From the NCBI RefSeq assembly GCF_030238365.1, contig NZ_JASSOT010000063.1, positions 62,001-126,000 on the forward strand: a stretch of 64,000 nucleotides of DNA. Direction: 5' to 3'. Origin of the DNA: Lelliottia wanjuensis. GTDB lineage: Bacteria; Pseudomonadota; Gammaproteobacteria; Enterobacterales; Enterobacteriaceae. How positions within the stretch are numbered: position 1 is the first letter of the stretch; every line of letters starts with the position of its first letter. A model generated the notes under the pieces. That model had not been told where the DNA came from. It saw only the letters and a list, made by a program, of their open reading frames with translations, and did not search any database. Made by a program: the position numbers and the translations under genes. This document shows, piece after piece, positions 1 through 15,283 of the stretch.

Positions 1-919
1 CGAGCGTCCCCTCCAGCATCGTCCCGCCGTACAGCGCCACGCCTGCCGCCTGTGCCGTATGCGCCAGCTTCAGCGCCTGCGCCGGACCGCCCGCTTTGGC
101 GATTTTCAGGGCATAGGCCCCGGTAAAGCCGCCGCTCGCCAGGGCATAGCCGTCGTGAAGGGTTGCCACCGCCTCGTCCGCCAGGATTGGCAGGGTAAAG
201 CGCTGGCTCAGCGTAATGAGACCGCGCGTGTCCCAGAGTGGGATCGGCTGCTCGACCAGGTCGATTCCGCCCGCCTGTAACCGCGTCATGCCCTGGATCG
301 CGCTGGTCAGATCCCACGCCTGATTCACATCCACACGAATGCTGACCTCCTCACCCAGCGCCGACTTGATCGCCAGGGCGTGGCGAATATCGCTGTGCAG
401 CTCGCCCGCGCCGATTTTCAGCTTGAAGGTGTTATGCCGCCCCTCGGCCAGCAGGCGTTTCCCCTCATCGATGTCTTTATGAGTGTTGCCGCTCGCCAGG
501 GTCCAGAGCACCGGTAGACGTGGCGTGAGTGCCCCGCCGAGCAGGCTGCTGACGGGCACATTGAGCTGTTTGCCGAGCGCGTCGAGAAACGCGGTTTCGA
601 GTGCAGATTTGGCAAAGGTGTTGCCTTTAACGCTGGCGTTCATCTTCCCGGCGAGCGATGCGACGCCGCTAAACGTCTGGCCGCACAGCAGCGGCGCGAG
701 ATAGGTTTCGATTGCCGAGCGAATGCCTTCCGGGCTTTCCGCCCCGTAGCTCAGCCCGCCGATAGTGGTGGCTTCCCCCCATCCGACCACGCCCTGCGCG
801 CATTCCATGCGCACAATGGTCAGGGTCTGGCAGCCCATGGTCGCCATCGACAGCTTGTGCGGGCGGATGGTTGGGATATCCACCAGCCAACAGGTGATGG
901 ATTCAATGGTGAGGCTCAT
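1..919 (-). CDS. catB: Muconate cycloisomerase, 3' part cut by window edge
   Basis: Enolase-superfamily enzyme that lactonises cis,cis-muconate to muconolactone in the catechol branch of the beta-ketoadipate pathway. The frame is open from the ATG at 917-919 to base 2, giving 306 codons; about 65 C-terminal residues lie outside, judging by the usual length near 370. Visible landmarks are the catalytic lysine pair in FKLKIG, the metal-ligand segments VDVNQ, VEQP and ADEA, the second catalytic lysine in LKIAKAG, and the family-typical YGGTMLE near the end. Its start overlaps the end of pcaD by 17 bases, so it is the last gene seen of the long minus-strand operon. Cycloisomerases for chloromuconate are close relatives; the neighbours favour plain muconate. 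Confidence 0.9.
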   Translation of the reverse strand, partial: MSLTIESITCWLVDIPTIRPHKLSMATMGCQTLTIVRMECAQGVVGWGEATTIGGLSYGAESPEGIRSAIETYLAPLLCGQTFSGVASLAGKMNASVKGNTFAKSALETAFLDALGKQLNVPVSSLLGGALTPRLPVLWTLASGNTHKDIDEGKRLLAEGRHNTFKLKIGAGELHSDIRHALAIKSALGEEVSIRVDVNQAWDLTSAIQGMTRLQAGGIDLVEQPIPLWDTRGLITLSQRFTLPILADEAVATLHDGYALASGGFTGAYALKIAKAGGPAQALKLAHTAQAAGVALYGGTMLEGTL

Positions 920-1682
920 GCTCGGCTCCTGCGGTTAAAAAGGTGATCACATGCTGGTTAAACGCCGCCGCGCAGGCGACATTCGACAGGTGTGAGGCGG
1001 GTAAAATCAGAAAGTGCGCGTGGGGGGCATCGACCACGATAGCTTCGGCGTCTCGCGAGGTGGTGACAGTGTCACTTTCCCCGGCAATCACCAGCATCGG
1101 GAGCGGCATTTGCGTCAGTTCATCTCGCAGATCGGCCATCGCCAGCGCGTCGCAGCAGGCGGCGTAGCCCTCGGCGGGCGTCGCGGCGAGCTGCTCAATC
1201 AGCGGATAAACCACCTCCGGATTACTGTGGCGAAACGCAGGCGTAAACCAGCGGTCGGCGGCGCTCTCGGCAACCGGGTTCATGCCCTGCGCGCGCACCG
1301 TCGCGGCACGCTCACGCCAGCCCGCCTCCTGCCCAATTCGCGCGGCGGTGTTGGCCACCACAATTCGCTGAAATCGCTCCGGCGCGTGGCGGTTGAGCCA
1401 CATCCCGGTCATCCCGCCAAGCGAGATCCCGCAAAAACAGGCCCGCTCCACGTCGAGATGATCCAGCCGGGCAATCACGTCCTGCCCGAGTCGCTCGAGG
1501 GTGACGGGCTGTTGCCCGACGGCTGAACGCCCGTGTCCGCGCGTGTTGTAGCGCAGCACGCGAAAATGTTGCGTCAGCGCTGGGATTTGCGCCTGCCACA
1601 TCTCCCAGGTAGTGCCTAACGAATTCGACAGCACCAGCAGCGGCGCGTCCTCCGGGCCATCAAGCCGATACTCAATCTCCAT
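903..1682 (-). CDS. pcaD: 3-oxoadipate enol-lactonase
   Basis: Alpha/beta hydrolase of 259 residues that opens 3-oxoadipate enol-lactone to 3-oxoadipate, the point where catechol and protocatechuate branches meet. The nucleophile elbow GISLGG places the catalytic serine at residue 87. The acid probably sits in GESDTV and the histidine in ASHLSNV near the C-terminus. The ATG has an AAGGAG a few bases upstream, just after the pcaJ stop (9-base gap). Its position between CoA-transferase and cycloisomerase genes supports the family call. The symbol could equally be catD. Confidence 0.9.
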   Translation of the reverse strand: MEIEYRLDGPEDAPLLVLSNSLGTTWEMWQAQIPALTQHFRVLRYNTRGHGRSAVGQQPVTLERLGQDVIARLDHLDVERACFCGISLGGMTGMWLNRHAPERFQRIVVANTAARIGQEAGWRERAATVRAQGMNPVAESAADRWFTPAFRHSNPEVVYPLIEQLAATPAEGYAACCDALAMADLRDELTQMPLPMLVIAGESDTVTTSRDAEAIVVDAPHAHFLILPASHLSNVACAAAFNQHVITFLTAGAEHEPHH

Positions 1683-1691
1683 AGATTCTCC

Positions 1692-2354
1692 TTACGCCGT
1701 CGCGTCTTCGGTCAGCAGCGCGAACGTCAGCGCCACCGGCGTGACGGACTGCAAATACTCCGCCGTGATGTCGCCAAACAGCTCGCGCACCATCACGCCC
1801 TGCGGGGTGATATCCATCACCGCCATATCGCTGTAGATGCGGTCGATGCAGGCCATCCCGGTCAGGGGATAGGTGCATTGCTCGACGATTTTGCACTCGC
1901 CCTTTTTGGTCAGATGTTCGGTCATCACGAACACTTTTTTGGCCCCGATCGCCAGGTCCATCGCCCCGCCAACGGCAGGAATGGCGGACGGCGCGCCGGT
2001 GCTCCAGTTGGCGAGATCGCCCCGCGCCGAGACCTGGTAGGCCCCGAGCACACAGATATCCAGGTGCCCGCCGCGCATCATGGTGAAGGAGTCGCCGTGG
2101 TGGAAATAGCAGCCGCCCGCCAGCAACGTCACCGGCTGTTTACCGGCGTTAATCAGCTCAGCGTCTTCCTCCCCCGGCGCAGGCGCTGGCCCCATGCCGA
2201 GAATGCCGTTTTCGCTGTGCAGGAAAATCTCGCGGTCCGCCGGGAGATAGTTGGCAATCTGGGTCGGCATACCGATGCCGAGATTAACGTAGGCCCCCTC
2301 GGGGATGTCGCGCGCAATGCGTTCGGCAAGCTGTTGATGCGTCAATGTGTTCAC
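1692..2354 (-). CDS. pcaJ: 3-oxoadipate CoA-transferase subunit B
   Basis: Beta subunit (220 aa) of the succinyl-CoA:3-oxoadipate CoA-transferase, which activates 3-oxoadipate for thiolysis. The SENG motif in HSENGILGMG carries the glutamate that forms the acyl-CoA intermediate in this family. I chose the GTG at 2352-2354: it has an AGGAG-type site, starts at VNTLTHQQLAERIA as relatives do, and gives a GTGA overlap with the pcaI stop; an upstream ATG would add an unrelated 34-residue leader. It pairs with pcaI directly upstream. catJ is an equivalent name. Confidence 0.9.
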   Translation of the reverse strand: MNTLTHQQLAERIARDIPEGAYVNLGIGMPTQIANYLPADREIFLHSENGILGMGPAPAPGEEDAELINAGKQPVTLLAGGCYFHHGDSFTMMRGGHLDICVLGAYQVSARGDLANWSTGAPSAIPAVGGAMDLAIGAKKVFVMTEHLTKKGECKIVEQCTYPLTGMACIDRIYSDMAVMDITPQGVMVRELFGDITAEYLQSVTPVALTFALLTEDATA

Positions 2355-3037
2355 GCGATCTCCTTGAGTGATGTGGGAGCAACCTGAATGATGCGCTGGA
2401 CGAAAATTCCCGGCGTGACCACCGCTTCCGGGTCCAGTTCGCCGAGGGCCACACACTCGCTCACCTGTGCAATGGTGCAGCTCGCCGCAGCGGCCATGAT
2501 TGGGCCAAAGTTGCGGCCGGTTTTGTCGTACACCAGGTTGCCCCAGCGGTCGGCTTTCAGCGCTTTGATCAGCGCGAAATCGGCTTTCAGCGGCAGTTCA
2601 AAGACGTAATCTTTGCCGTCGATATGGCGCGTCTCTTTGCCCCCGGCAAGCTCAGTGCCGTAGCCGGTTGGCGTAAAAATACCGCCTAATCCCGACCCGC
2701 CCGCCTGAATGCGCGCCGCGAGATTGCCCTGCGGCACCAGCTCCAGCTCGACCTCGCCGCGACGATAGAGATCGTCAAACACCCAGGAATCCACCTGACG
2801 TGGGAAGGAGCAGATCACCTTCTTTACACATCCGGCTTTCAGCAGCGCCGCCAGACCGTAGTCGCCGTTGCCAGCGTTATTGCTGATGAGGGTGAGTTCG
2901 CGCGGACGGCGGCGGATCAGGGCATCCAGCAGATCGGACGGCTGCCCCGCCGGGCCAAAGCCGCCAACCATCACCGTCGCGCCGTCAAAAATGTCTTTCA
3001 CCGCGCCATCCAGCGTGGCAATCCGTTTATCAATCAT
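2351..3037 (-). CDS. pcaI: 3-oxoadipate CoA-transferase subunit A
   Basis: Alpha subunit (228 aa) of the 3-oxoadipate CoA-transferase. The glycine-rich VMVGGFGPAGQPSDLL segment near residue 20 is the family I CoA-transferase signature. Start chosen at MIDKRIATL because its ATG overlaps the TGA of the upstream transporter gene (ATGA) and relatives begin here; the longer open frame only covers transporter sequence. Tight overlaps on both sides indicate translational coupling in one operon. Confidence 0.9.
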   Translation of the reverse strand: MIDKRIATLDGAVKDIFDGATVMVGGFGPAGQPSDLLDALIRRRPRELTLISNNAGNGDYGLAALLKAGCVKKVICSFPRQVDSWVFDDLYRRGEVELELVPQGNLAARIQAGGSGLGGIFTPTGYGTELAGGKETRHIDGKDYVFELPLKADFALIKALKADRWGNLVYDKTGRNFGPIMAAAASCTIAQVSECVALGELDPEAVVTPGIFVQRIIQVAPTSLKEIA

Positions 3038-4353
3038 TCCTGAGCCTCTTTGTTGTGATTGGGCAGGCTGCGCAGGGCAATCCACGCCAGCAGGGCGTAA
3101 ACCATCAGCAGAAGGGAGACCGGCCACGAGGCGTTAAACTCCATCAGTAACGCCACCGCCAGCATCGGCCCCAGACCGCCGGAGAAAATCGATCCCACTT
3201 CGTGCCCCAGCGCGAGACCGGAGTAGCGCACCCGCACCGGAAAGAGATCGCTCATGATGCAGGGCTGGGTGCCGATCATCGCCCCGTGGCAGAACGGCAG
3301 CCCGAGCAGCATCGCCAGCATGATCCAGCCGTACGTCCCGGTTGCGAGCAGCCAGAAGAACGGGAATGCCATCACCAGCAGGCCAATCACGCCGATGTAA
3401 TAGACCGGCTTGAGGCCGATGCGATCCGACAGCGCCCCCCAGAACAGAATCGAGAAGAACTCCACCAGCATCGCCAGGGTGACGGCGCTGATGATCTCCC
3501 CGGTGCTGATGCCGATGTGTTTGGCGTAGACCACCGAGAAGGTAAAGAAGATGTAGGACGCGCCGTTCTCCGGCAGACGCAGGGCTATCGCCTGCAGCAG
3601 CGCTTTCGGGTGTTCGCGAATAATCACCAGCAGCGGGATTTTCTCGTGCGCCTCTTCCGGTTTGGCCTGGGTAAACGCCTTGCTCTCGCGGATGTTTTTG
3701 CGGATGTAGACGCCGACCAAAAAGATGACGATGCTCAGCAGGAACGGGACGCGCCAGCCCCAGCTCATAAAGTCTTCTTCCGGCAGTTTTTGCACCAGAT
3801 AAAAGGCAAAGGCCGAGAGAACAAACCCGCCGGACACCCCCATCTGGCTCCAGGCGGTGTAGTACCCGCGACGTGACGCGGGCGCATTTTCACTCAGCAT
3901 CAGCACCCCGCCGCCCCACTCCCCGCCGGAGGCCACGCCCTGTAAGAAGCGCAGAATGATCAGCGACAGCGGCGCCCAGATGCCGATCTGCGCGTAGACC
4001 GGCAGGAGGCCAATTACAAAAGTGGTGGCGCCCATCAGCGTCAGGGTCATGATCAGCGTCATTTTGCGGCTGTAGCGATCGCCGATATGTCCGAAGACAA
4101 TCCCGCCCAGCGGACGGGCAAGGAAACCCACGGCGAAACCGGAAAACGCCAGCAGCGTGCCCTGGAGCGGATCGCCGCCCACCGGGAAGAACAGCGGGCC
4201 AAACACCAGCGCCGCCGCGGTGCCGTACAGGAAAAAGTCATACCACTCCAGCGCATTACCCAGCACCGAGGCGATCACCAGCTTGCGCATCTGCTGCGCG
4301 TCCTGGCCGCCCGCGGCGGTGGTCACGCGGTTTTCAGTGACGACATTACTCAT
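3034..4353 (-). CDS. MHS-family MFS permease, likely aromatic-acid importer
   Basis: Major facilitator of 439 residues with about 12 membrane segments. The N-terminal LGNALEWYDFFLYG and the loop GHIGDRYSRK are typical of the metabolite:H+ symporter branch that includes ShiA, ProP and PcaT-type permeases. It lies inside the catabolic operon, 29 bases after iacG and overlapping pcaI, so import of indole-3-acetate, or of a lower-pathway acid such as 3-oxoadipate or muconate, is the reasonable inference. Sequence alone does not decide the substrate. Confidence 0.8.
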   Translation of the reverse strand: MSNVVTENRVTTAAGGQDAQQMRKLVIASVLGNALEWYDFFLYGTAAALVFGPLFFPVGGDPLQGTLLAFSGFAVGFLARPLGGIVFGHIGDRYSRKMTLIMTLTLMGATTFVIGLLPVYAQIGIWAPLSLIILRFLQGVASGGEWGGGVLMLSENAPASRRGYYTAWSQMGVSGGFVLSAFAFYLVQKLPEEDFMSWGWRVPFLLSIVIFLVGVYIRKNIRESKAFTQAKPEEAHEKIPLLVIIREHPKALLQAIALRLPENGASYIFFTFSVVYAKHIGISTGEIISAVTLAMLVEFFSILFWGALSDRIGLKPVYYIGVIGLLVMAFPFFWLLATGTYGWIMLAMLLGLPFCHGAMIGTQPCIMSDLFPVRVRYSGLALGHEVGSIFSGGLGPMLAVALLMEFNASWPVSLLLMVYALLAWIALRSLPNHNKEAQE

Positions 4354-4382
4354 AACGCGCGTCCCCTCTTGTTGTCGTGGGC

Positions 4383-4877
4383 TTACGCCTGCACATCGTC
4401 ACCGACGGTGTGATAGCGGCGGTTGAAGTAGACCAGCCCGCGCGGCTGCTCGCTGATGCGGATCGCCTGCACCTGGCAGTAGAAAACGCTGTGGCTGCCC
4501 ACTTCGTGACAGGTGTCGATGGTGCAGTCGAAGCTGGCGATACTTGAACTGAGCACCGGCGCGCCGCTGCTCATCACCTGCCAGCGGTCGTGCAGAAATC
4601 GCTCTTCGGAGCGCAGGCTGGCGTTGGCAAAAACACCTGAGAGATCCTGATGTTCCCCGGAGAGTACGTTGACGCACAGGGTGCCGTTCTGTTTGAAGTG
4701 CTGATGGGCGTAGGAGTTGCGGTTCATGCACACCAGCAGCGTTGGCGGCTGGTCGGTCACGCTACAGACCGCCGAGGCGGTAAAGCCAAATTTCCCCGCC
4801 GGGCCGTCGGTGGTGATCACCGAAACCGCGCTGCCGAGCTGCGCCATCGCATTACGAAATTCTGTTTGCAGTGTCAT
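4383..4877 (-). CDS. iacG: NADH:flavin reductase, IAA monooxygenase component
   Basis: HpaC-like flavin reductase of 164 residues that supplies reduced flavin to a two-component monooxygenase. The segment KFGFTASAVCSVTDQPPTLL matches the flavin-binding core of this family. It is the ninth gene of a series matching iacHABICDEFG, and the only flavin reductase beside the flavoprotein oxygenase IacA, so partnership with IacA is inferred. It follows iacF with a 10-base gap. HpaC-type reductases are promiscuous, so the partner is assigned from context. Confidence 0.82.
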   Translation of the reverse strand: MTLQTEFRNAMAQLGSAVSVITTDGPAGKFGFTASAVCSVTDQPPTLLVCMNRNSYAHQHFKQNGTLCVNVLSGEHQDLSGVFANASLRSEERFLHDRWQVMSSGAPVLSSSIASFDCTIDTCHEVGSHSVFYCQVQAIRISEQPRGLVYFNRRYHTVGDDVQA

Positions 4878-4887
4878 AAGTCATTCC

Positions 4888-5820
4888 TTACAAATCGATA
4901 ACGAGACGGGCGCACTTCGCCCGCGAACAGCAGAGCAGGATCTGATCGCCGTCGGCTTTCTCTTCGTCGGTCAGATAGTGGTCGCGGTGATCCGGCTCGC
5001 CTTCCAGCACGTCCGTCAGGCAGCTGCCGCAGATCCCCTGCTTGCACGACACATTCACCTTCAGCCCGGCCTGAGCCAGCGCCTCGACGATGGTCTGGTT
5101 TTCCAGCACTTTCACGCTGATGCCGCTGGTCGCGGCCACCACTTCAAAAGCCGTTCCGCCGGTCTGCACTTCCGCGCTGAAACACTCCTGATGGATTTGC
5201 TCCTGGCGGTATCCCTGGGCTTTCGCCCTATCGGTCACCGCATCCATCAGCCGCGTCGGACCGCAGGTGTAGACGTGAGTGTTGTCGGGCACGTCGCACA
5301 GTACCGCGTCCAGATTCAGACGCTGTTCGTCGCTAAAGTGCAGGTGTACCCGTTCCGCAAAGGGGGCGTTTTCCAGCTGCGGAATAAACGCCGCCTGCGA
5401 GCGCGACCGGGCACAGTAGTGCAGCGAAAAACTGCGCCCGCCGGCGTGGAGTTCCGCCGCCATCGCCAGCATCGGCGTGATGCCAATCCCGCCGCCAATC
5501 AGCAGGCTGTGGGCAGCCGCATCGTCCAGCGCAAACAGGTTGCGCGGCTCGCTGACCTGAATCTGATCCCCTTCGCGCAGGGCGTGGGCAGCCAGCGATC
5601 CGCCCGTTGAGCGTGAGTCTTTCAGCACGCCGAGCTGGTAGTGCTGCGCGTCCTGAGGGTCGCTGCACAGAGAGTACGGACGAATCAGATCGGCGCTCAG
5701 ATGCAGGTCGATATGCGCCCCGGCGCGAAACGTCGGGAGCGGAATGCCATCCACATGCGCCAGGGTCAGCAGGACCACCTCGCCCTGCAGCTCGCGGCGG
5801 ATCACCTGTAAAGTCAGCAT
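4888..5820 (-). CDS. iacF: Rieske dioxygenase reductase (FNR plus 2Fe-2S)
   Basis: Electron-transfer protein of 310 residues in the phthalate dioxygenase reductase/VanB arrangement. The flavin-binding domain contains RPYSLCSDP, the NADH domain contains the LLIGGGIGITPMLAM loop, and the C-terminus has a plant-type ferredoxin domain with CKQGICGSC and a fourth cysteine near CCSRAKC. It should pass electrons from NADH to the oxygenase IacC/IacD. Start and stop spacing (9 and 10 bases to neighbours) fits the operon. Confidence 0.85.
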   Translation of the reverse strand: MLTLQVIRRELQGEVVLLTLAHVDGIPLPTFRAGAHIDLHLSADLIRPYSLCSDPQDAQHYQLGVLKDSRSTGGSLAAHALREGDQIQVSEPRNLFALDDAAAHSLLIGGGIGITPMLAMAAELHAGGRSFSLHYCARSRSQAAFIPQLENAPFAERVHLHFSDEQRLNLDAVLCDVPDNTHVYTCGPTRLMDAVTDRAKAQGYRQEQIHQECFSAEVQTGGTAFEVVAATSGISVKVLENQTIVEALAQAGLKVNVSCKQGICGSCLTDVLEGEPDHRDHYLTDEEKADGDQILLCCSRAKCARLVIDL

Positions 5821-5829
5821 GAAAACTCC

Positions 5830-6564
5830 TTAGCGCATGAACAGACCGCCGTTGATGTCCCAGGTCGCCCCGGTGACAAACGACGCTTGCGGGGAAGCCA
5901 GCAATGCCACGGCCTGGGCGATAAACTCCGGCTCGCCGAGTTTCCCGACCGGGATCATCTGCAGCAGCCCGGCCATTTTCTCTTCCGGCACCAGGGCGTG
6001 AACCATCGGCGAATCCATCGGACCCGGCGCGATGGCATTGACCGTCACGCCGGATTTGCTCAGCTCGCGGGCGAAGATTTTGGTCAGGGTCAAAATGCCG
6101 CCCTTCGAGGCCGCGTAGTGCGCGCCGGATGCCGTGCCGCCGTTCTGCCCGGCCAGCGACGCGAGGTTGATAATGCGACCGTAGTGTTGGGCGGCGAAGT
6201 AGCGCCCCAGCGTCTGGCAGCCAACGAAAGTGCCGCGCAGATTGGTGGAGATCACCCGGTCAAACTCGTCGACGCCAATCTCCATCACTGGCGTGGCGAG
6301 GGTCAGGGCGGCGTTATTCACCAGCACTTCCAGGCTGCCGAAACGGGCGACGGTGGCGTCCAGCGCGCGGGAAAAATCCTCCGGCTGGCGGATATCCAGC
6401 CCCAGCGCCAGCACGTTGTCGTGGTCGAGGGCGTCCGCCGCCTGCTGCGCGCGCGCGGCGTCGACGTCCGTCAGCACCACCTGGAACCCCTGCTCCAGCA
6501 GATGCGCGGCGATGACATTGCCCAGACCGGCGGCTGCGCCGGTCACTAATGCGGTTTGCGTCAT
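5830..6564 (-). CDS. iacE: Short-chain dehydrogenase of the IAA pathway
   Basis: SDR-family oxidoreductase of 244 residues. The Rossmann motif TGAAAGLG is near residue 9, NNAA near residue 90, and the catalytic Ser...YxxxK is seen as NLASLAGQ followed by HYAASKGG. I start at MTQTALVTG because it has a leader-free Rossmann fold; the longer frame runs into iacD. In the known iac pathway IacE acts on oxidised indole-acetate intermediates. A cis-dihydrodiol dehydrogenase role is the main alternative. Confidence 0.82.
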   Translation of the reverse strand: MTQTALVTGAAAGLGNVIAAHLLEQGFQVVLTDVDAARAQQAADALDHDNVLALGLDIRQPEDFSRALDATVARFGSLEVLVNNAALTLATPVMEIGVDEFDRVISTNLRGTFVGCQTLGRYFAAQHYGRIINLASLAGQNGGTASGAHYAASKGGILTLTKIFARELSKSGVTVNAIAPGPMDSPMVHALVPEEKMAGLLQMIPVGKLGEPEFIAQAVALLASPQASFVTGATWDINGGLFMR

Positions 6565-6574
6565 GAGCGATTCC

Positions 6575-7057
6575 TCACAGGATGTAGCCGATGCTGTGCA
6601 GCACATCGTCGCTGTTGACCAGGCGGATCACCTTCTGCTGGATGCGCAGGCGGTCGCCCTCGCGCTGCAGCTGCCAGGTAATATCCGCCGCGTAATGGCG
6701 GCTGTGGCCCTTGCGGTGTTCCCACAGGGACTGCGCCCCGCGCACTACAATCAGACCGTCGTTCGCCTCCAGCAGACGAAAACGCGACAGCGTGCGCAGG
6801 GTTCTGGCGCGCGGCGTGGTGGAGATCGACTCGCCGCTGTAGAGGCGGTGGACGCGTTTTTCACGCATGTGGTGATCGTCGCAGGCGTAGTTGAGCGTGT
6901 TTTTAAAGTCGGTTTCGTTCGGGTCGATCGGCACCACGTACAGACCGTCGTGCTGCCACAGATCCAGCCAGGCGGTGAATTCGCCCTGATCGAGCAGGTC
7001 GCCCTCGAGGTTAATCAGGGTCACGGCGGCAAAGAGTTGAGATTCTGGCGTCATCAT
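6575..7057 (-). CDS. iacD: Rieske dioxygenase small (beta) subunit
   Basis: Ring-hydroxylating dioxygenase beta subunit of 160 residues with the NTF2-like cone fold, non-catalytic and structural. The segments EFTAWLDLW and the C-terminal RIQQKVIRLV are family-typical. The first of two adjacent ATGs (7055-7057) overlaps the iacC stop as ATGA, giving MMTPESQLF. It forms the hexameric oxygenase with IacC. Confidence 0.85.
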   Translation of the reverse strand: MMTPESQLFAAVTLINLEGDLLDQGEFTAWLDLWQHDGLYVVPIDPNETDFKNTLNYACDDHHMREKRVHRLYSGESISTTPRARTLRTLSRFRLLEANDGLIVVRGAQSLWEHRKGHSRHYAADITWQLQREGDRLRIQQKVIRLVNSDDVLHSIGYIL

Positions 7058-8367
7058 TGTTCGCTCTCCGTCATCAGTTTTTTCCATTGCTGGTAGGCGG
7101 CGCGCATCCCGGTTTCGGCGCTGACGTCGCTGCGCAGACCGTCATCGGTGCGGTACTCGCCCGCCAGCCCACGGTTGAGCATGATCCACAGGTCGTCGCC
7201 CGCCGTGGCACCGCGCTGTACGCGCTCCCAGGCTTCCGAGTCGTCCGGCGTGCCGAAGCCCATCGGCCCCTGGAAGTGTTCGTGCAGACGCAGGCGCGCC
7301 TGGTTGGCGATTTCAGGGCCGCCGTCCATGGTGATCACCGCGTGGTGGATTTCGGTTTCGTTAACCGACACCGGCTGGAGCACGCGGAAGAAGGCCATCG
7401 AACAGGCGATGTTCGGGAAGATATTGAGGTTAAAACCGGAGCCGCCGACGGCGCGCACGATGCGACGCACCTGCTGTTCGTCGTGGTCGGCGCGCAGGGC
7501 CTCGGCCAGCGCTTCAAAGCGCTCGGGGATCGGGGCGTCGAGATTGGCCTCGAGATCCACTAATTCCGGGATCATCACCATCACGCTGTGGCCGTTGCCG
7601 AGATCTTCCACGTAGCCGCTGCCGTCGACGAAGTTGAGCATCTCTTCGGTCTGCTTATCGACGGAGCTTAAGAACGAGCGGTGCACCACCGGGAAGTGAT
7701 AGCCATCGGTGGTGTTTTCGAGCTGGATTTTCCAGTTGCCGGGGAAGCGGAAGCGGTGCGCCGGGCCGGTTTTGATCGGATAGCCCGCGCCCTGCTTCAT
7801 AAACAGATCCATCCACTTTTTCGCCGCGCCGAGGAAATCTTCCAGAGGTTCAATCTGCTCGTTAAAGGTGGCGAAAATCATCCCCGCGTACTGTTCCGTG
7901 CGCAGGGAAACCAGCCCCAGTTCGCCTTTTTCCAGCTGATCCGCGTAGCTTTCCGGGTGCGGCACGCCGCGCAGGCTGCCGTCCAGGGCATAGCCCCAGC
8001 CGTGGTACGGGCAGACGAAGCTGTTGGTTTTCCCACTGCGGTGTTCGCACACGGTCGCCGCGCGGTGACGGCAGCGGTTGAGCAGCGTGTGGACGGTGCC
8101 TTTGCGATCGCGCACCACGATCACCGGCTGAGTACCCAGCTCGGTGGTTTTGAAGCTGCCGGTGTCCGGGATTTCACTGGCGTGCGCCACCCACACCCAG
8201 GTCTTGCTGAAGATGCGATCCAGCTCAAGCTGGAACAGGCTGTCGGAGGTATAAAGCGAGGTGTGGACGCGGTCGCTTTGTACCAGTCCGGCAATATCTG
8301 CCGATGTCGGCAGAGAGTGCGGCGTGGTATCGATGTTTTTAATGGTGATCAGGTGATCGCAATTCAT
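7054..8367 (-). CDS. iacC: Rieske dioxygenase large (alpha) subunit
   Basis: Catalytic oxygenase subunit of 437 residues. The Rieske cluster ligands are C99 and H101 (CRHR) and C119 and H122 (CPYHGW). The mononuclear iron site shows H224 and H229 in DGYHFPVVH. Within an iac cluster this subunit with IacD and IacF is placed in the late steps towards catechol. It overlaps iacI upstream and iacD downstream by 4 bases each. Anthranilate and salicylate dioxygenases are related, and an anthranilate-like substrate is compatible with the pathway. Confidence 0.87.
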   Translation of the reverse strand: MNCDHLITIKNIDTTPHSLPTSADIAGLVQSDRVHTSLYTSDSLFQLELDRIFSKTWVWVAHASEIPDTGSFKTTELGTQPVIVVRDRKGTVHTLLNRCRHRAATVCEHRSGKTNSFVCPYHGWGYALDGSLRGVPHPESYADQLEKGELGLVSLRTEQYAGMIFATFNEQIEPLEDFLGAAKKWMDLFMKQGAGYPIKTGPAHRFRFPGNWKIQLENTTDGYHFPVVHRSFLSSVDKQTEEMLNFVDGSGYVEDLGNGHSVMVMIPELVDLEANLDAPIPERFEALAEALRADHDEQQVRRIVRAVGGSGFNLNIFPNIACSMAFFRVLQPVSVNETEIHHAVITMDGGPEIANQARLRLHEHFQGPMGFGTPDDSEAWERVQRGATAGDDLWIMLNRGLAGEYRTDDGLRSDVSAETGMRAAYQQWKKLMTESEQ

Positions 8368-8900
8368 GTCTGGTTCTCCTGCACGTTTTCTTTTTTATCA
8401 GGGACAGGTAATTCATCCGCCGCGTGCCAGCGGTCCACCGGTCGGCTGAACAGGTTGCGGGTGGTGAAGTGGCGCATCGCCATGCCGTTCGCCTCGCGCA
8501 CAAAGGTGACGCAGATTTCTGCGGCGTTCAGGTGCGCGCCGCCGGCGGTAAATTCCGAGGTTTGCAGCATCAGCCAGCGCCCGCGCAGTTCGCCGTCCGG
8601 CGTGTGGCCCAGCGCTTCCGAGCACAGGAAATGCGCGTTAAGGGCAAAGTGCGCGGGACGGCGGACGTAGCTCGCCATCATCGAAACAATCGCCTCGCGC
8701 CCCTGATGCTTGCCGAGGCGGGTGGCGTAGGGTTCGCCGATCCCTTCCCAGCAGGCGTCGGCGGTAAAGAGCGCGCCAATCGCCTGCACGGTGTCGGGGC
8801 TGTCGAGCTGGTCGCACAGGCGCATGTAATCGCTGATGCACACCCGCGCCGCCTGGCTGTCTTCGAGCTGCTGTAAGCGCAGCGCATCCTGTGCGTTCAT
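8364..8900 (-). CDS. iacI: SnoaL/NTF2-like protein of the IAA pathway
   Basis: Protein of 178 residues predicted to fold as an alpha+beta cone of the SnoaL/NTF2 superfamily, recognisable from DYMRLCDQLDSPDTV, ALFTADACWEGIG and the late HFTTRNLFSRPVDRW. Such proteins can be isomerases, hydrolases or dioxygenase-like small subunits; no catalytic set is obvious here. Its place between iacB and iacC matches iacI of the described cluster, whose exact step is not firmly established to my knowledge. It starts 4 bases after the iacB stop. Confidence 0.75.
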   Translation of the reverse strand: MNAQDALRLQQLEDSQAARVCISDYMRLCDQLDSPDTVQAIGALFTADACWEGIGEPYATRLGKHQGREAIVSMMASYVRRPAHFALNAHFLCSEALGHTPDGELRGRWLMLQTSEFTAGGAHLNAAEICVTFVREANGMAMRHFTTRNLFSRPVDRWHAADELPVPDKKENVQENQT

Positions 8901-8904
8901 GGTC

Positions 8905-9264
8905 TTAGCCCTGGATAATCAGTTCGCGGCCCACGCGGGCTTCGATTTTGCAGTACTTCCACAGTTTGCTGCCGCCCTCGCCCACCGGCGTGGTGCGGAA
9001 CAGGTTGCAGACGGCTGCGACGTTCTCCAGTTTCTCGGCGTCCGCCAGCACGTAGGTGGTCCAGGGGGCGGTGGTGGACGGGCCGACCATGAGCTGGTCG
9101 TCATCCATGTTGCCGATGACGCGAATGCCTGGCGTCTCTTCGATCCCTTTCATCATCACGCCGAAAGCGCCCCACACCTGTTTGGCTTCCGCCGGGCTGG
9201 CGTCGAAAAAGTTCTGATTCACCCCGATGCAAAACAGCACGCGTAACGTTGTTGACTGGCTCAT
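8905..9264 (-). CDS. iacB: Small IAA-pathway protein of unknown fold
   Basis: Protein of 119 residues with no motif I recognise; one domain without signal peptide or membrane segment. It resembles ferredoxin-like dimeric alpha/beta barrel proteins in size and in its N-terminal strand LRVLFCIGVNQNFF, but that is impression only. A strong AAGGAG lies ahead of the ATG. Its position between iacA and iacI corresponds to iacB, reported as required for IAA breakdown. Confidence 0.72.
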   Translation of the reverse strand: MSQSTTLRVLFCIGVNQNFFDASPAEAKQVWGAFGVMMKGIEETPGIRVIGNMDDDQLMVGPSTTAPWTTYVLADAEKLENVAAVCNLFRTTPVGEGGSKLWKYCKIEARVGRELIIQG

Positions 9265-9287
9265 CTGTTGCTCCTTACGTTAAAAAA

Positions 9288-10415
9288 TCACAAGTAACCG
9301 GGCAGCGGTTTGCCGCCGAAAAAGACCGTACCGGCGTTGAGGTACGAGAGATCGCCCATAAAGGCGTGCTGGGTGATCACCATGGTGTCGCGGACAAAAC
9401 GCTGCAGCGGGCTGGAGAGCGTGACGCCGCCCATGCCGTTCAGCGCCAGCGCCTGACGCGCTACGTCGGCGGCGACGCGGGTGACGTGGGTCGACGAGAG
9501 TCTGAGCGCATTAATCTGCTCGCAGCTCGCGTCGTCCCCGGCCAGCAGGCTCTGCCAAACGTCGTCGATGGCTTCGTAGAACCAGGCGCGGGCGGAGCGC
9601 AGTTCGGCTTCGCAGCGGGCAATTTGCATCTGCGCCTGCTGGCGGTCGGCCAGACGCGGCGCGCCGGTCACCGACTGCTGACGATGGGCGATGGCGTAGA
9701 TTTCGTTGAGCGCCGCGCGGGCCACGCCGAGTGCCACCACGGAGAGCACCTGGGTCGCGAGCGACAGCACCGGATAGCGGTACAGCGGCCCCTCGAGATT
9801 CAGCACCCCGCCGCGAATGAAGGTCCACTCGTGAGGGACGAAAACATCGTTGACCACCAGATCGTGGCTGCCGGTTCCGGCGAGGCCGACCGTGTCCCAG
9901 ACGGGATCGATCTGCACGCTGGCCCGTGGCAGAACCGCCATGCGCGGCAGGGCCTGATCGGCGTCCGGCAAAATTCCGACGCCCAGCACCGAGGCACCCA
10001 TGCTGCCGCTGGCAAAGCTCCAGCGTCCGCTGACGCGGTATCCGCCGTCGGCCTGAGTGGCTTTTTGCGTCGGGAAGATCCCGCCCGCAAAGACCACGTC
10101 CGGCCCGTCGCGGTAGAGCTCCTGCAGGGTGTCAGGCGGCAGCGCGCCGAGGTAAAACGGGCTCATGCCGAAACTCGCCACCCAGCCTGCGGAGCCGTCG
10201 GCAGTGGAGATTTGCTCCACCAGCTCGCAAAACTGCGCCGGGGAGCATTCGTCGCCGCCGTAGATTTTCGGCACCAGCGCGCGGTAGACGCCCACCTGTC
10301 TGAAACGGGCGATGATGTCGTCAGAGATATGACGTTGATGCTCAAACTCCCGGCTGCGAGCCGCGACATCACTCAGAAGCGGAACAAGTTCTTCACGAAC
10401 AGGAATGGCAGACAT
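9288..10415 (-). CDS. iacA: Indole-3-acetate monooxygenase, acyl-CoA-dehydrogenase fold
   Basis: Flavin-dependent oxygenase of 375 residues with an acyl-CoA dehydrogenase-like fold, the family of two-component monooxygenases. Visible features are the N-terminal helical part (RHISDDIIARFRQVGVYRAL), the beta domain around GSHDLVVNDVFVPHEW and a C-terminal helical domain. In characterised iac systems IacA performs the first attack on IAA, giving 2-hydroxy-IAA, and turns indole into indigo. The ATG at 10413-10415 has GGAGG 7 bases upstream; a longer frame adds 22 residues without a site. Needs reduced flavin, probably from IacG. Confidence 0.85.
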   Translation of the reverse strand: MSAIPVREELVPLLSDVAARSREFEHQRHISDDIIARFRQVGVYRALVPKIYGGDECSPAQFCELVEQISTADGSAGWVASFGMSPFYLGALPPDTLQELYRDGPDVVFAGGIFPTQKATQADGGYRVSGRWSFASGSMGASVLGVGILPDADQALPRMAVLPRASVQIDPVWDTVGLAGTGSHDLVVNDVFVPHEWTFIRGGVLNLEGPLYRYPVLSLATQVLSVVALGVARAALNEIYAIAHRQQSVTGAPRLADRQQAQMQIARCEAELRSARAWFYEAIDDVWQSLLAGDDASCEQINALRLSSTHVTRVAADVARQALALNGMGGVTLSSPLQRFVRDTMVITQHAFMGDLSYLNAGTVFFGGKPLPGYL

Positions 10416-10467
10416 GGCGTCCTCCGAAAAGGGTTGTGCGGTGTGCGCAAGGCGAGCGCGGCCGCAA

Positions 10468-10480
10468 TGAGTCGTACTCA
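10468..10480. repeat. Short inverted repeat between iacH and iacA
   Basis: TGAGTCGTACTCA has perfect 5-base arms around a 3-base centre. It lies in the 93-base gap between the iacH stop and the iacA start, the widest gap inside the operon. It could shape the mRNA between the two genes. No U-tract follows, so it is not a terminator. Confidence 0.35.
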
Positions 10481-10508
10481 CTGAGTCATCGGGTAAGAAA
10501 AACGGGAA

Positions 10509-11633
10509 TTACGCTTGTCGTCGGCCCGTGAGCCACTCGACGGCCTGCACCAGCAGCCCGTCGTGGCCTTTGGCGGCAATCAGCTGGAGTGAAACCGGAC
10601 GCCCGCGCAGTTCAGCCACAGTAAGCGTGATGGCCGGATGACCGCTGAGGTTGAACGGCCTGACCAGCCGCGTGAGGTTGACCACGCCGAGCGGATCGGC
10701 GGCTTCCTCGAGCGTCGGCGGCAGTTCCGGCAGCGTCGCCAGCGCCAGCAGCGGGGTTTTTGCTAGCAGTGCGTCGACCTGCGTGGTGAAGGTTGCGCGT
10801 ATCTGTTCGGCGGTATCGAGCGCTTCGGCGCTGACGTCCGCCCCGGCGCGGATACGCGAGGCGACGTCTGGAGAAACCTGATTGCCAGCCAGCAGCGGGC
10901 TGAACGCCTGCCAGTTTTCGTGGCTGATGAGGGTTAAGCCTGCCCGGTGGGCATCATTGAGATTCGGGAGCTGCGCCTGTTGCGGCGTCACGCCCTGCTG
11001 TTCAAGGAAATTGAGAAGCGTTGCGTCGATGTCTTCTGACGCGGCGGAGATAAACGCCATCGCCGGAAGCGCGTCCAGCGGCTCGCCGACGGATACGGAA
11101 AGCCGGGTCATCGCCTGGCGTAATACCGCGGCGTCGCTCGCAAAAACGCCGACACAGTCGAGAGAGCTTTGGGCAGGCATCACGCCGTCACGGCTGAGCA
11201 CGCCGAAGCCGGGTTTGAATCCGAGAATTCCGCAGCAGGCGGCGGGCATTCTGACGGAGCCGCCGGTGTCGGTGCCCAGCGAAAAATCGACGTCACCGGA
11301 GGCGACCACGGCGGCAGAGCCGCTGGACGAGCCGCCCGGAATCAGCGCCGGATAGCGCGGGTTGACCGGCGTGCCGCTCCAGGGATTAATCCCGGTGACG
11401 CCAAACGCCAGCTCATGCAGCGTAGTTTTGCCCGTCAGCTGGCAACGTTTTTCGAGTAACGTCGATACGACGCTGGCGTGTTGCCCGGCAACCGGGACAT
11501 CTGCCAGCGCCGGACAGCCTGCGCGGGTCTGATGCCCGGCGACGTCCAGGGTGTCTTTCACCGCGAATCGCAGGTCGCCCTCGCCGAGGACGAATTGCTC
11601 AACGTAACCATTGCTCTCATAAACTGGCTTCAT
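10509..11633 (-). CDS. iacH: Amidase-signature hydrolase of the IAA pathway
   Basis: Amidase-signature enzyme of 374 residues. The Ser-cisSer-Lys triad is visible: K26 in AVKDTLD, the cis-serine in GGSSSGSAA near residue 103 and the nucleophile S126 in GTDTGGSVR. It is the first gene after the intergenic promoter region and matches iacH, placed by others in opening or trimming of oxidised indole intermediates. It is shorter than GatA-type amidases (about 480) but normal for this group. Indole-3-acetamide hydrolysis to IAA is the main alternative. Confidence 0.8.
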   Translation of the reverse strand: MKPVYESNGYVEQFVLGEGDLRFAVKDTLDVAGHQTRAGCPALADVPVAGQHASVVSTLLEKRCQLTGKTTLHELAFGVTGINPWSGTPVNPRYPALIPGGSSSGSAAVVASGDVDFSLGTDTGGSVRMPAACCGILGFKPGFGVLSRDGVMPAQSSLDCVGVFASDAAVLRQAMTRLSVSVGEPLDALPAMAFISAASEDIDATLLNFLEQQGVTPQQAQLPNLNDAHRAGLTLISHENWQAFSPLLAGNQVSPDVASRIRAGADVSAEALDTAEQIRATFTTQVDALLAKTPLLALATLPELPPTLEEAADPLGVVNLTRLVRPFNLSGHPAITLTVAELRGRPVSLQLIAAKGHDGLLVQAVEWLTGRRQA

Positions 11634-11966
11634 GATTGATACCTTAACCAGAAAAAGTGAATCATATTCAGGCTGGCAGTCACTGCTGCCTTTTTGTCCT
11701 GACTAACGTTAGGTCAATCATGGAAGAATTAGATGAAAATTCAAGTAATCTTTCACGTTAATTTTACGCTGACGCAACATTTTATTAACCTTTAACTCTG
11801 CAAGGTTACTGATTCAGGATGATGAAAAATAAGACAAAACGGCGGGAACGGGAAAGGGATGCCGCCCTGAGAACTCAGCGCGGCATAAGCATTTTATTAG
11901 TGAAATTACAGAGAGTTAGAGAGAAAGACTACGGAGTTCACAAATTTGTCATCGGATAATTTGACC
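11634..11966 (-). promoter_or_regulatory. iac operon control region with candidate IacR operator
   Basis: AT-rich 333-base gap between iacR and iacH. A perfect 10-base palindrome CTAACGTTAG at 11703-11712 is embedded in a wider near-symmetric TGAC...GTCA context, about 70 bases before iacH, and overlaps a TTGACC box read on the minus strand (complement of 11712-11717). MarR proteins bind palindromes of this kind, so it is a good candidate for IacR. No convincing -10 box was found. Confidence 0.5.
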
Positions 11967-12440
11967 TCACAGTTCGTTGAGGTTATCCAGTACTTTGGCG
12001 AGTGAAAGATTCATCTTATCGACCTGCGACACACTCATCCCTTTGAAGCCTTTTTCGAACACTTTTTCGGTCAGGGCGTAGGCTTCTTCCACTTTTTTCA
12101 GACCGGCCTCCGTAAGCATCACTTCGGTGACGCGCGCGTCCTGTTCGCTGCTGGCGGTGGTCACCAGACCGTCATCGCGCAGCCGCCCGACGATTTTGGT
12201 GATGGTCGGCATTTTCGCCATCGCGTATTCAGAAATTTGCGAAATGCTGGCTTTACCGTACTGGTGCGTGACCATCAGCACCCGAAAGCGAGACACGTCC
12301 AGCTGGGCTTTTTTCAGTGTGATTTCCATAATTTGCGTGTAGCGCGCATAAACATTCACGATCCAGTAGAACGGAAACGCTTCGCGATGAAAGGCGGGAT
12401 CGTCAGGTGCGCCGTCCGGGGTATTTTTTAGAGTTGTCAT
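11967..12440 (-). CDS. iacR: MarR-family regulator of the IAA cluster
   Basis: Winged-helix repressor of 157 residues. The recognition region reads KASISQISEYAMAKMPTITKIVGRLRDDGLV, split here as KASISQISEYAM then AKMPTITKIVGRLR, followed by wing residues SSEQDARVTEV. The ATG at 12438-12440 has AAGGA upstream; a TTG five codons earlier is unlikely. It lies upstream of iacH in the same direction and is known in other iac clusters to respond to IAA. It may also act on the divergent permease at 12811. Confidence 0.82.
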   Translation of the reverse strand: MTTLKNTPDGAPDDPAFHREAFPFYWIVNVYARYTQIMEITLKKAQLDVSRFRVLMVTHQYGKASISQISEYAMAKMPTITKIVGRLRDDGLVTTASSEQDARVTEVMLTEAGLKKVEEAYALTEKVFEKGFKGMSVSQVDKMNLSLAKVLDNLNEL

Positions 12441-12606
12441 GCGTTTCCTTACCAAAAAGAGCGTCAGAGTGAACGATTATACCCCGCGATCCGGCGGCGA
12501 CTAAGCCTATCTGAGAGCGTGCTGAAACGTATAAGAGATCCCGATCGCATTATGATTCAAAATTGCTGGCTGATTAACAATTACGTATCATTTTTTACAC
12601 ATTGCA

Positions 12607-12636: not shown

Positions 12637-12660
12637 TTTAGCGGACCTGTACGACAATTC

Positions 12661-12787
12661 TATACCCTAAATAATTCAAGTTGCAGGAAGGCGGCAAGGG
12701 AGTGAATCCCCAGGAGCTTACTCAAGTAAGTGACTGGGGTGAACGAGCGCAGCTAACGCACCTGCAGCTTGAAGTATGACGGGTATA
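12661..12787. repeat. ERIC element
   Basis: A 127-base imperfect palindrome starting TATACCC and ending GGGTATA. The core contains GTGAATCCCCAGGAGCTTAC and AAGTAAGTGACTGGGGTGA, the sequences used to define the enterobacterial repetitive intergenic consensus. It is full length and lies just upstream of the permease ribosome site, so it would be transcribed into the leader of that gene. Confidence 0.93.
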
Positions 12788-12810: not shown

Positions 12811-14193
12811 ATGAACCAACGTTCTTCTGTGGAGCAGACGCGCCCGCCGTCGTCTGCGCCCGACGCTCTGGACCCTCGCCAGCAGGCCGTGATCAAAAAG
12901 CTGTTCCGTCGGCTGATTGTATTTTTATTTATTCTGTTCGTTTTTTCCTACCTCGATCGCATCAACATTGGCTTTGCCGGTCTGACGATGGGCAAAGATC
13001 TGGGCCTGACCAGCACCATGTTTGGCCTCGCCACCACCCTGTTCTACGTGATGTACGTGATTTGCGGCATTCCGAGCAACATCATGCTGAGTATCGTCGG
13101 CGCGCGGCGCTGGATTGCGGTGCTAATGGTGGTGTGGGGCATCGCCTCCACCGCCACCATGTTCGCCACCGGGCCGAACAGTTTGTACGTCCTGCGCATG
13201 CTGGTCGGGATCGCCGAAGCGGGCTTTTTACCGGGCCTGTTGCTCTACTTAACCTACTGGTTCCCGGCCCATTACCGCGCTCGCGCCAACGCGCTGTTTA
13301 TGATTGCGATGCCGGTGACGATGGCGCTCGGATCGCTGGCTTCCGGCTACATTCTCAATATGGACGGCCTGCTGAATCTGAAGGGCTGGCAGTGGCTGTT
13401 CCTGCTGGAGGGCTTCCCGTCCGTGCTGCTCGGTCTGGTGGTCTGGTTCTGGCTGGATGACAGCCCGTCGAAGGCCAAATGGCTGACCGAGGATGACAAA
13501 GCGTGCCTCGCGGAGATGCTGGAAGCGGATAAAATCGCCGCCAGTAAAACCCAGCTGGAAGCGAATACCCTGCCCCAGCGCAGCGTGGCGCGCGAACTGT
13601 TCACACCGATTATTATTCTCTACACGGTGGCCTATTTCTGTCTCACCAATACGCTGAGCGCCCTGAGCGTCTGGACGCCGCTGATCCTGCGCAGCTTCAA
13701 CGAAACCAGCAGCAACGTCACCATCGGTTTGCTGAGCGCCATTCCACAGGTGTGTACGATTGTGGCGATGGTCTGGTGGAGTAAACGCTCCGATCGCCTG
13801 AACGAGCGCAAAATCCACACCCTGCTGCCGTATCTCTTTGCCGCCGCAGGCTGGATGTTAACCGCCTCGAGTACCCATGCGATGCTGCAGTTTACCGGCA
13901 TTGTGATGGCGTCGGCAGGCGCGTTTGCGGCGATGGTGATCTTCTGGACCACGCCGGACCGCTTTATCTCTCTGCGCGCTCGCGCGGTGGGGATCGCGGT
14001 GATCAACGCCACCGGGATGACCGGGGCGGCGCTGGGGCCGCTGCTGATGGGCTGGATGAAAGACGTCACCGGGAACTTCAACGCCGGGATCTTTATGGTG
14101 GCCGGATTCCTGGTGCTGGGCGCGCTGATTATCGCCCTGATCCCGATGAGCAAAACCGCTGTGCAAAAAGCTGCCGCCCCACTCTCGACTTGA
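12811..14193 (+). CDS. MFS permease, anion:cation symporter family
   Basis: Twelve-segment permease of 460 residues. YLDRINIGFAGLTMGKDLGL after the first helix is the hallmark of the ACS branch (phthalate, tartrate, hexuronate and glucarate carriers). Start chosen at MNQRSSVEQ with GGAG 8 bases upstream; the longer frame begins inside the ERIC element. It is divergent from iacR, so uptake of indole-3-acetate or another organic acid under IacR control is possible but unproven. Confidence 0.82.
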   Translation: MNQRSSVEQTRPPSSAPDALDPRQQAVIKKLFRRLIVFLFILFVFSYLDRINIGFAGLTMGKDLGLTSTMFGLATTLFYVMYVICGIPSNIMLSIVGARRWIAVLMVVWGIASTATMFATGPNSLYVLRMLVGIAEAGFLPGLLLYLTYWFPAHYRARANALFMIAMPVTMALGSLASGYILNMDGLLNLKGWQWLFLLEGFPSVLLGLVVWFWLDDSPSKAKWLTEDDKACLAEMLEADKIAASKTQLEANTLPQRSVARELFTPIIILYTVAYFCLTNTLSALSVWTPLILRSFNETSSNVTIGLLSAIPQVCTIVAMVWWSKRSDRLNERKIHTLLPYLFAAAGWMLTASSTHAMLQFTGIVMASAGAFAAMVIFWTTPDRFISLRARAVGIAVINATGMTGAALGPLLMGWMKDVTGNFNAGIFMVAGFLVLGALIIALIPMSKTAVQKAAAPLST

Positions 14194-14224: not shown

Positions 14225-15205
14225 ATGAAGAAAATCCTGATTATCGTCCCTGACGGCGGCATGTTGTTCGAAGCCGCCGGTATCGCAGACATTCTGATGC
14301 AGGCCAACCAGCTCCATCCGGAAGGCCTCGCCCAGCCTCGCTATCGCATTATTATCGCCACCACCCAGCCGCATCAGGTGATCCACGGCCAGTCCGGATT
14401 AAACCTGCTGGCGGACTATCGCCTGCCGGAGCTGGATCCGCGTGAACCGCTCGACACCATCATCATTACCGGTCGCGGGATGAACGAGCTGGAGAGCACC
14501 GCGGTGGTGGACTGGCTGCATCTGGCCGCCCCGCACGCCCGGCGCATCGCCTCGATTTGCGGCGGCGCGTTGCTGCTGGCGCAGAGCGGTTTACTCGACG
14601 GTCGCCGCGCCACCACTCACTGGCGGCTGCTGGAGACGATGCAAAAAACCTGGCCTGCCATCAAAGTCGAAGGCGGCCCGCTCTATATTCAGGACGGTCC
14701 GATCTGGACCTCTGGCGGCGTGAGCTCGGGGTTTGATCTGACGCTGGCGCTGGTCGAAGAGGATTACGGTTTTAGCCTGGCGCGCGACGTGGCCCAGGAT
14801 CTGGTCATGTACCTGCGCCGCCCCGGCGGGCAGCTGCAGTTCAGCCGCTACAACCTGCACCAGTCCAGCAGTTCCGGGCCGATCGGCGAACTCCAGACCT
14901 GGATTTTGAACCATCTCACGGACGATCTTTGCGTCGAAAAACTGGCGGAACAGGCGGCGATGAGTCCACGCAATTTCACCCGCGTCTTTACGCGCGAAAC
15001 CGGGGCGTCCCCGGCGCGTTACGTGATGGAAGCCCGCCTCGCCGCGGCCCGTCAGCTGCTGGAGCAGACCAGCGAACCGCTGGAGCGCATCGCGGAGCAG
15101 AGCGGGTTTGGCACCAGCATCAACCTCAGGCGCGTGTTTGAGAAACAGCTCCACCTCACTCCCGGCGAGTATCGCCAGCGCTTCCACTGCCGCAAAATGG
15201 CGTAA
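14225..15205 (+). CDS. GlxA-type AraC-family regulator
   Basis: Regulator of 326 residues with an N-terminal DJ-1/PfpI-like domain (ILIIVPDGGMLFEAAG; ASICGGALLLAQSGLLDG with cysteine 112 at the nucleophile elbow position) and a C-terminal AraC domain with two helix-turn-helix units (VEKLAEQAAMSPRNFTRVF and LERIAEQSGFGTSINLRRVF). The family senses metabolites through the first domain, usually without enzyme activity. It sits 31 bases after the permease and 78 bases before a GAPDH gene on the same strand; either could be its target. Confidence 0.83.
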   Translation: MKKILIIVPDGGMLFEAAGIADILMQANQLHPEGLAQPRYRIIIATTQPHQVIHGQSGLNLLADYRLPELDPREPLDTIIITGRGMNELESTAVVDWLHLAAPHARRIASICGGALLLAQSGLLDGRRATTHWRLLETMQKTWPAIKVEGGPLYIQDGPIWTSGGVSSGFDLTLALVEEDYGFSLARDVAQDLVMYLRRPGGQLQFSRYNLHQSSSSGPIGELQTWILNHLTDDLCVEKLAEQAAMSPRNFTRVFTRETGASPARYVMEARLAAARQLLEQTSEPLERIAEQSGFGTSINLRRVFEKQLHLTPGEYRQRFHCRKMA

Positions 15206-15283
15206 TGTGATCCTTTTTTGTCATTTACGCCAACCGGCCTGACGCCTACAGTGACTCCAGACACCACAGTTAAGGAGTGCATC

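Follow-up and report, generated by a model that had tools for sequence, protein, structure and literature searches.

Gene content and layout of the locus

The stretch analysed here, called the window throughout, comprises 64,000 nucleotides of Lelliottia wanjuensis (contig NZ_JASSOT010000063.1, our G000:C22:62001-126000, from a host genome of 5.37 Mb in 79 contigs). Its left end carries an iac gene cluster, of the kind that degrades the auxin indole-3-acetate (IAA), joined to genes of the catechol branch of the beta-ketoadipate pathway. On the minus strand, from iacR leftwards, the genes run iacH, A, B, I, C, D, E, F, G, mfs, pcaI, pcaJ, pcaD and catB. An initial annotation, made from the sequence alone, had named all of these, and for every one an open frame is found on the minus strand where that annotation put it. 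The features are as follows, with percentages giving identity to the Enterobacter soli counterpart:

11967-12440, minus strand: iacR, MarR-type regulator (Pfam MarR; best Protein Data Bank (PDB) match 7l19, E. soli IacR, 272 bits; ATG at 12440)
10509-11633, minus strand: iacH, amidase family (Pfam Amidase; 77%)
9288-10415, minus strand: iacA, acyl-CoA dehydrogenase-like flavin monooxygenase (Pfam Acyl-CoA_dh_2; 93%; start at 10415)
8905-9264, minus strand: iacB (assigned by position and 94% identity to the E. soli frame)
8364-8900, minus strand: iacI, SnoaL-like (Pfam SnoaL_4; 85%)
7054-8367, minus strand: iacC, Rieske dioxygenase large subunit (Pfam Rieske and Ring_hydroxyl_A; Rieske and mononuclear-iron motifs; 93.6%)
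6575-7057, minus strand: iacD, dioxygenase small subunit (Pfam Ring_hydroxyl_B; 85%)
5830-6564, minus strand: iacE, short-chain dehydrogenase (Pfam adh_short_C2; YxxxK motif; 90%)
4888-5820, minus strand: iacF, ferredoxin reductase (Pfam Fer2 and NAD_binding_1; 82%)
4383-4877, minus strand: iacG, flavin reductase (Pfam Flavin_Reduct; 89%)
3034-4353, minus strand: mfs, metabolite:H+ symporter-like transporter (TIGR00883 at 390.6 bits, under the cut-off of 443.45; Pfam MFS_1; 92%)
2351-3037, minus strand: pcaI, 3-oxoadipate CoA-transferase subunit A (TIGR02429 above cut-off; start ATG at 3037)
1692-2354, minus strand: pcaJ, 3-oxoadipate CoA-transferase subunit B (TIGR02428 above cut-off)
903-1682, minus strand: pcaD, 3-oxoadipate enol-lactonase (TIGR02427 above cut-off)
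1-919, minus strand: catB, muconate cycloisomerase, truncated by the window edge (TIGR02534 above cut-off; complete at L004:11795-12919)
directly after catB, outside the window (L004): catC and catA (TIGR03221 and TIGR02439, respectively, above cut-offs)

All nine iac homologues (iacA, B, C, D, E, F, G, H and I) thus stand together, and Pfam assigns a fitting family to every Iac protein except IacB, with intact motifs in IacC, IacE, IacF and IacH. The order iacHABICDEFG is confirmed by frames, families and synteny with E. soli, as is the presence of an iacR-type gene upstream of iacH (7l19 being its best PDB match) and of the permease gene mfs, pcaI, pcaJ, pcaD and catB downstream, catB being cut only by the window edge. 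From iacA to catA, neighbouring genes overlap by as much as 17 bases or stand up to 39 bases apart, and about 90 bases separate iacH from iacA; it is plausible that the operon is read as a single transcript.

The initial annotation also recommended looking to the left for catA, catC and pcaF, and placed the upper and lower pathways at one locus. The first two genes do follow catB at once, so that catBCA and pcaIJD are both present. The genome's single match above the pcaF cut-off (723.3 bits against 597) lies outside the cluster, at G000:C11:404729-405928, flanked by frames that read by eye, without a model, as paa genes. The lower pathway is therefore complete in the genome and incomplete at the locus.

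Orthology with the LF7 cluster and proposed function

The arrangement is already known from the literature. In E. soli LF7, iacHABICDEFG is followed by pcaIJD-catBCA, and PMC8383072 describes iacHABICDEFG-mfs-pcaIJD-catBCA as controlled by IacR and upregulated by IAA, attributing this to Greenhut et al. 2018 (doi 10.1128/AEM.01057-18). Strain LF7 is the same as E. soli ATCC BAA-2102 (PMC9613470), whose locus (L012) has exactly the order iacR-iacHABICDEFG-mfs-pcaIJD-catBCA and shares the outer neighbours, gapX-glxA-permease on one side and desaturase-PhnD on the other. Its operon proteins are 73% (PcaD) to 94% (IacB) identical to those of the window, with IacC at 93.6%. The two loci differ in this sequence divergence and in a presumably ERIC-like element, which stands in the iacR-permease gap of the window and not in that of E. 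soli.

The regulator points the same way. The best PDB match of the window's IacR is 7l19 (272 bits), followed by 7kua (145.2), 7l1i (74.6) and 7kfo (36.3). Of these, 7l19 is the E. soli IacR (PMC11630574), and 7l19 and 7kua are both named as IacR structures in PMC9613470; 7kua comes from P. putida IacR, 7l1i from A. baumannii, and 7kfo is the Variovorax iad regulator.

Homology, gene order and the orthologous LF7 cluster thus uphold the identification of the locus as iac genes linked to the catechol branch under a MarR-type regulator, and the functional reading is well supported by the sequence comparisons. We consider it very probable (about 0.93) that this is an ordinary enterobacterial iac operon, orthologous to the published LF7 cluster, in which IacR would repress, IAA would release the repression, and the Iac, Cat and Pca proteins together with a PcaF-type thiolase would degrade IAA. 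Novelty is low, since this arrangement has already been published for another member of the genus, and the locus, as one more orthologue of the LF7 operon, adds little.

In this mechanism, IacR would hold down a promoter within the iacR-iacH gap, and binding of IAA to IacR would lift the repression, so that iacHABICDEFG-mfs-pcaIJD-catBCA is expressed. The Iac proteins would then take IAA through 2-hydroxy-IAA and dioxindole-3-acetate to catechol. In PMC9613470, IacA is assigned the step to 2-hydroxy-IAA and IacE that to dioxindole-3-acetate, and iacC, with iacD, iacF and possibly iacI, is placed on the further way to catechol. CatA, CatB, CatC, PcaD and PcaIJ would carry catechol to 3-oxoadipyl-CoA, and the final step would fall to the PcaF-type thiolase encoded away from the cluster. 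The steps catalysed by CatA, CatB, CatC, PcaD, PcaIJ and PcaF belong to an established pathway. We infer that the IacR control and IAA induction described for LF7, and the chemistry described for other strains, also hold in the window's strain. An indolepyruvate decarboxylase is present in the genome as well (TIGR03393, 986.4 bits; cut-off 946), and the strain may therefore both produce and degrade IAA.

Several points weigh against the IAA-degradation operon. IacB has no match in Pfam or NCBIfam, no iac-specific model is among the NCBIfam matches listed for the Iac proteins, and pcaF is encoded outside the cluster. In addition, a sigma-70 consensus scan finds two promoter-like sites against a shuffle mean of 3.2, which leaves the promoter unsupported.

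Three other explanations bear on the extent or the substrate of the operon. The first concerns two overlapping genes to the left of the window (L004:8587-10339), one like a fatty acid desaturase and the other PhnD-like, which might be the last genes of the operon and active in auxin use. The pair does follow catA on the same strand and in the same order in the window's genome, in E. soli and in five of 14 further same-genus stretches. However, a 196-base gap separates it from catA, and it is not seen after catA in the other nine of the 14 iac-bearing stretches (L111 has only 1.5 kb beyond catA). Moreover, in 20-kb stretches ending at treA from 12 of 13 iac-less genomes (G001 left out), the pair occurs in nine, beside glxA-gapX in six and beside mfsC in three, and is not seen in L127, L128 and L131. 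Since it stands at the site without iac in these relatives, we regard the pair as resident, and a part for it in the pathway is very improbable; it was rejected on the evidence of the iac-less stretches and of the nine in which the pair is not seen after catA.

Degradation of another aromatic acid (anthranilate, benzoate or 3-phenylpropionate) by a related Rieske dioxygenase is less probable again. The large subunit does match the HcaE, BenA and AntA models (217.4, 197.3 and 193.2 bits), but these scores are far under the respective cut-offs of 830, 780.95 and 671.9, on which grounds all three cluster types were rejected, and iacA, B, E, G, H and I are present in iac order with an IacR orthologue. 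Least probable of all is an iad-type locus converting IAA to anthranilate: iad loci do carry distant homologues of iacC, D, E and F (PMC9613470), but the regulator is of the IacR and not the IadR type (272 bits to E. soli IacR against 36.3 to Variovorax 7kfo), and catechol pathway genes follow iac, so we reject it.

The iacR-iacH and iacR-permease gaps

The 333-base gap between iacR and iacH was aligned for 28 sequences (L017 yielded no iacR-iacH pair), of which 27 non-redundant rows were kept after removal of L115, which is more than 95% like another row. The best-conserved 30 bases of the gap lie at 11758-11729, where the mean frequency of the commonest base is 0.953, compared with a median of 0.732 for 30-base windows (27 rows). 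The conserved block holds a 22-base imperfect palindrome (11749-11728), in which 16 of 22 positions are self-complementary in the window and 18 of 22 in rows having A at the centre. The core TTGAATWTTCA occurs in 28 of 28 rows, with one copy in the whole window. The block is entered as:

11728-11768, minus strand: probable IacR operator upstream of iacH (from conservation and palindrome)

MarR repressors commonly bind palindromes of this kind, so the block is probably the IacR operator. A promoter overlapping this putative operator is possible. For LF7, Greenhut, Slezak and Leveau (2018) reportedly found constitutive expression when iacR was deleted and, ahead of iacH, a possible IacR site. 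The sequence conserved in the window and its relatives provides a precise candidate for the IacR operator.

A G+C-rich hairpin with a T-run, read from the alignment, lies just after iacR in nine of the 28 rows (L006, L009, L111-L116 and L120), which suggests that iacR is transcribed separately from iacH. The window itself has a hairpin after iacR, at 11859-11886, without the T-run.

Control by IacR of the divergent permease gene beyond iacR, through the same motif, was rejected: the 20-base motif, with up to five mismatches allowed, occurs in 0 of 27 iacR-permease gaps (scanned with 200 bases of the permease gene and 60 of iacR; L017 and L018 yielded no such pair). The 11-base core with two mismatches occurs in eight of the 27, at varying places. 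The gap in the window also contains a 131-base element (12657-12787) with TATACC..GGTATA-like ends and an internal inverted repeat (12708-12739), which we take to resemble an ERIC repeat; it is not present in the E. soli row.

Site, distribution and comparison with other iac clusters

On the far side of iacR lies a further transporter gene:

12811-14193, plus strand: HpaX-like permease gene, divergent from iacR (TIGR02332, 731 bits; cut-off 615.4)

The listed frame starts at TTG 12769, with ATG 12811 the likelier start. This permease gene adjoins iacR in 12 of the 14 loci L006-L019 (the flank of L017 is short, and L018 yielded none) and in all 14 same-genus stretches L107-L120, and we infer that it belongs to the auxin module and would import IAA. 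The 12 iac-less stretches have no iac, mfs, cat, pca or HpaX-like permease match listed, and the unit that comes and goes would therefore consist of the permease gene, iacR and iac-mfs-pca-cat. On the broader proposal we remain tentative, placing it somewhat below even odds: that the permease acts as an arylacetate importer and has been overlooked as part of the module, and that the whole forms one unit of about 16 kb, gained and lost in Enterobacter-like bacteria at a conserved site flanked by the resident desaturase gene on one side and by glxA-gapX or mfsC on the other.

The initial annotation located the cluster beside treA. This gene is in the same window (20835-22526), although about 8 kb past iacR, with five frames of at least 250 amino acids (permease, GlxA-like, GAPDH, MFS and AraC-type) and a porin frame intervening. 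Among 17 of the 18 iac-bearing genomes (G056 left out), treA is within 15.1 kb of iacC in 15; the exceptions are G024, with a distance of 105 kb, and G046, where the genes fall on separate contigs. These results support auxin consumption as a patchy, mostly position-conserved trait in Enterobacter-like bacteria. Two side observations concern the neighbours. At 14225-16294, a GlxA-like regulator gene (DJ-1/PfpI plus AraC) is followed directly by a GAPDH-family gene, and several iac-less relatives have both genes at the site too. A plasmid search found relatives of the desaturase in Klebsiella, Pantoea and Rhizobium plasmids, either carrying a fatty acid desaturase annotation or unannotated.

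IacC occurs (E <= 1e-100) in 18 of 60 genomes of the genus, the window's own included; the copy in G056 (L120), a genome that is 78% complete and has split iac frames, is a fragment. The genus as used here is broad, and holds records named E. soli, Silvania confinis, Pseudenterobacter timonensis and Leclercia adecarboxylata (by matched contig coordinates). In genomes spread over the family, IacC occurs (E <= 1e-150) in 10 of 198, again including the window's own. The collection 'ecoli_genomes' has no near match to window positions 1-12600. K. pneumoniae and Enterobacter species are reported to possess iac clusters (PMC12502551). A search of named records gave 78 loci from the best 80 of 576 IacC matches, and carriers outside the genus, among the matches listed, include Kluyvera, Citrobacter, Buttiauxella, Pseudocitrobacter and Shimwellia. 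Because IacC recurs in the genus and in other Enterobacteriaceae, enterobacterial occurrence is not surprising; the initial suggestion that it was notable is not supported, given these 18 genomes and the published LF7 arrangement.

Since that list was limited to the best 80 matches, a quick IacC tree (93 rows; L120 omitted as a 244-residue fragment) covers nearer relatives only. The 28 rows of the window's kind form one branch (SH-aLRT 97), and with a midpoint root the neighbouring branch is that of Enterobacter sp. JUb54 and a Klebsiella pneumoniae plasmid. A record named Pantoea sp. Ap-967 (L041, NZ_VWXK01000001.1) has iac in the Pseudomonas arrangement, with its IacC among Pseudomonas rows, which would reflect either recent transfer or a misnamed genome.

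Pseudomonas and Acinetobacter clusters have homologous iacA-iacI sets, and many Pseudomonas loci share the order H-A-B-I-C-D-E-F-G. They differ in that IacC is 74-80% identical (among the matches listed), iacR is often on the opposite strand, and catBCA is missing or else lies upstream or downstream of iac with no intervening pcaIJD. Some Pseudomonas loci (L044 and L058) carry iacC, D and F homologues a second time, with an mfs gene, beside the main iac cluster. The second enterobacterial lineage (Enterobacter sp. JUb54, L020; K. pneumoniae plasmid NZ_CP118937.1, L134) also has iacR and then HABICDEFG, but its IacC is about 80% identical and forms a separate branch of the IacC tree. The plasmid further differs in having no cat or pca gene in the annotated stretch, its gene table being incomplete. 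The plasmid bearing this divergent cluster (NZ_CP118937.1:10500-39771) is conjugative and of the IncF type, and IS3-family transposase genes lie downstream of the cluster.

The loci of Kluyvera (three), Buttiauxella (three), Pseudocitrobacter (two), Citrobacter (one) and Shimwellia (one) (L007, L008, L010, L011 and L014-L019) share the order iacHABICDEFG-mfs where the locus is long enough (L017 begins within iacA). In all ten, pcaIJD was not found between mfs and the cat genes (pcaIJD elsewhere in those genomes was not searched), and catB was not found in L015, L016 and L018. Within the genus, all 14 stretches (L107-L120) have pcaIJD between mfs and catB, as do L006, L009, L012 and L013, which are also records of that genus (L009 and L115 represent a single place). 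Linkage of pca to iac is therefore a feature common to the genus, LF7 included, and not special to the window.

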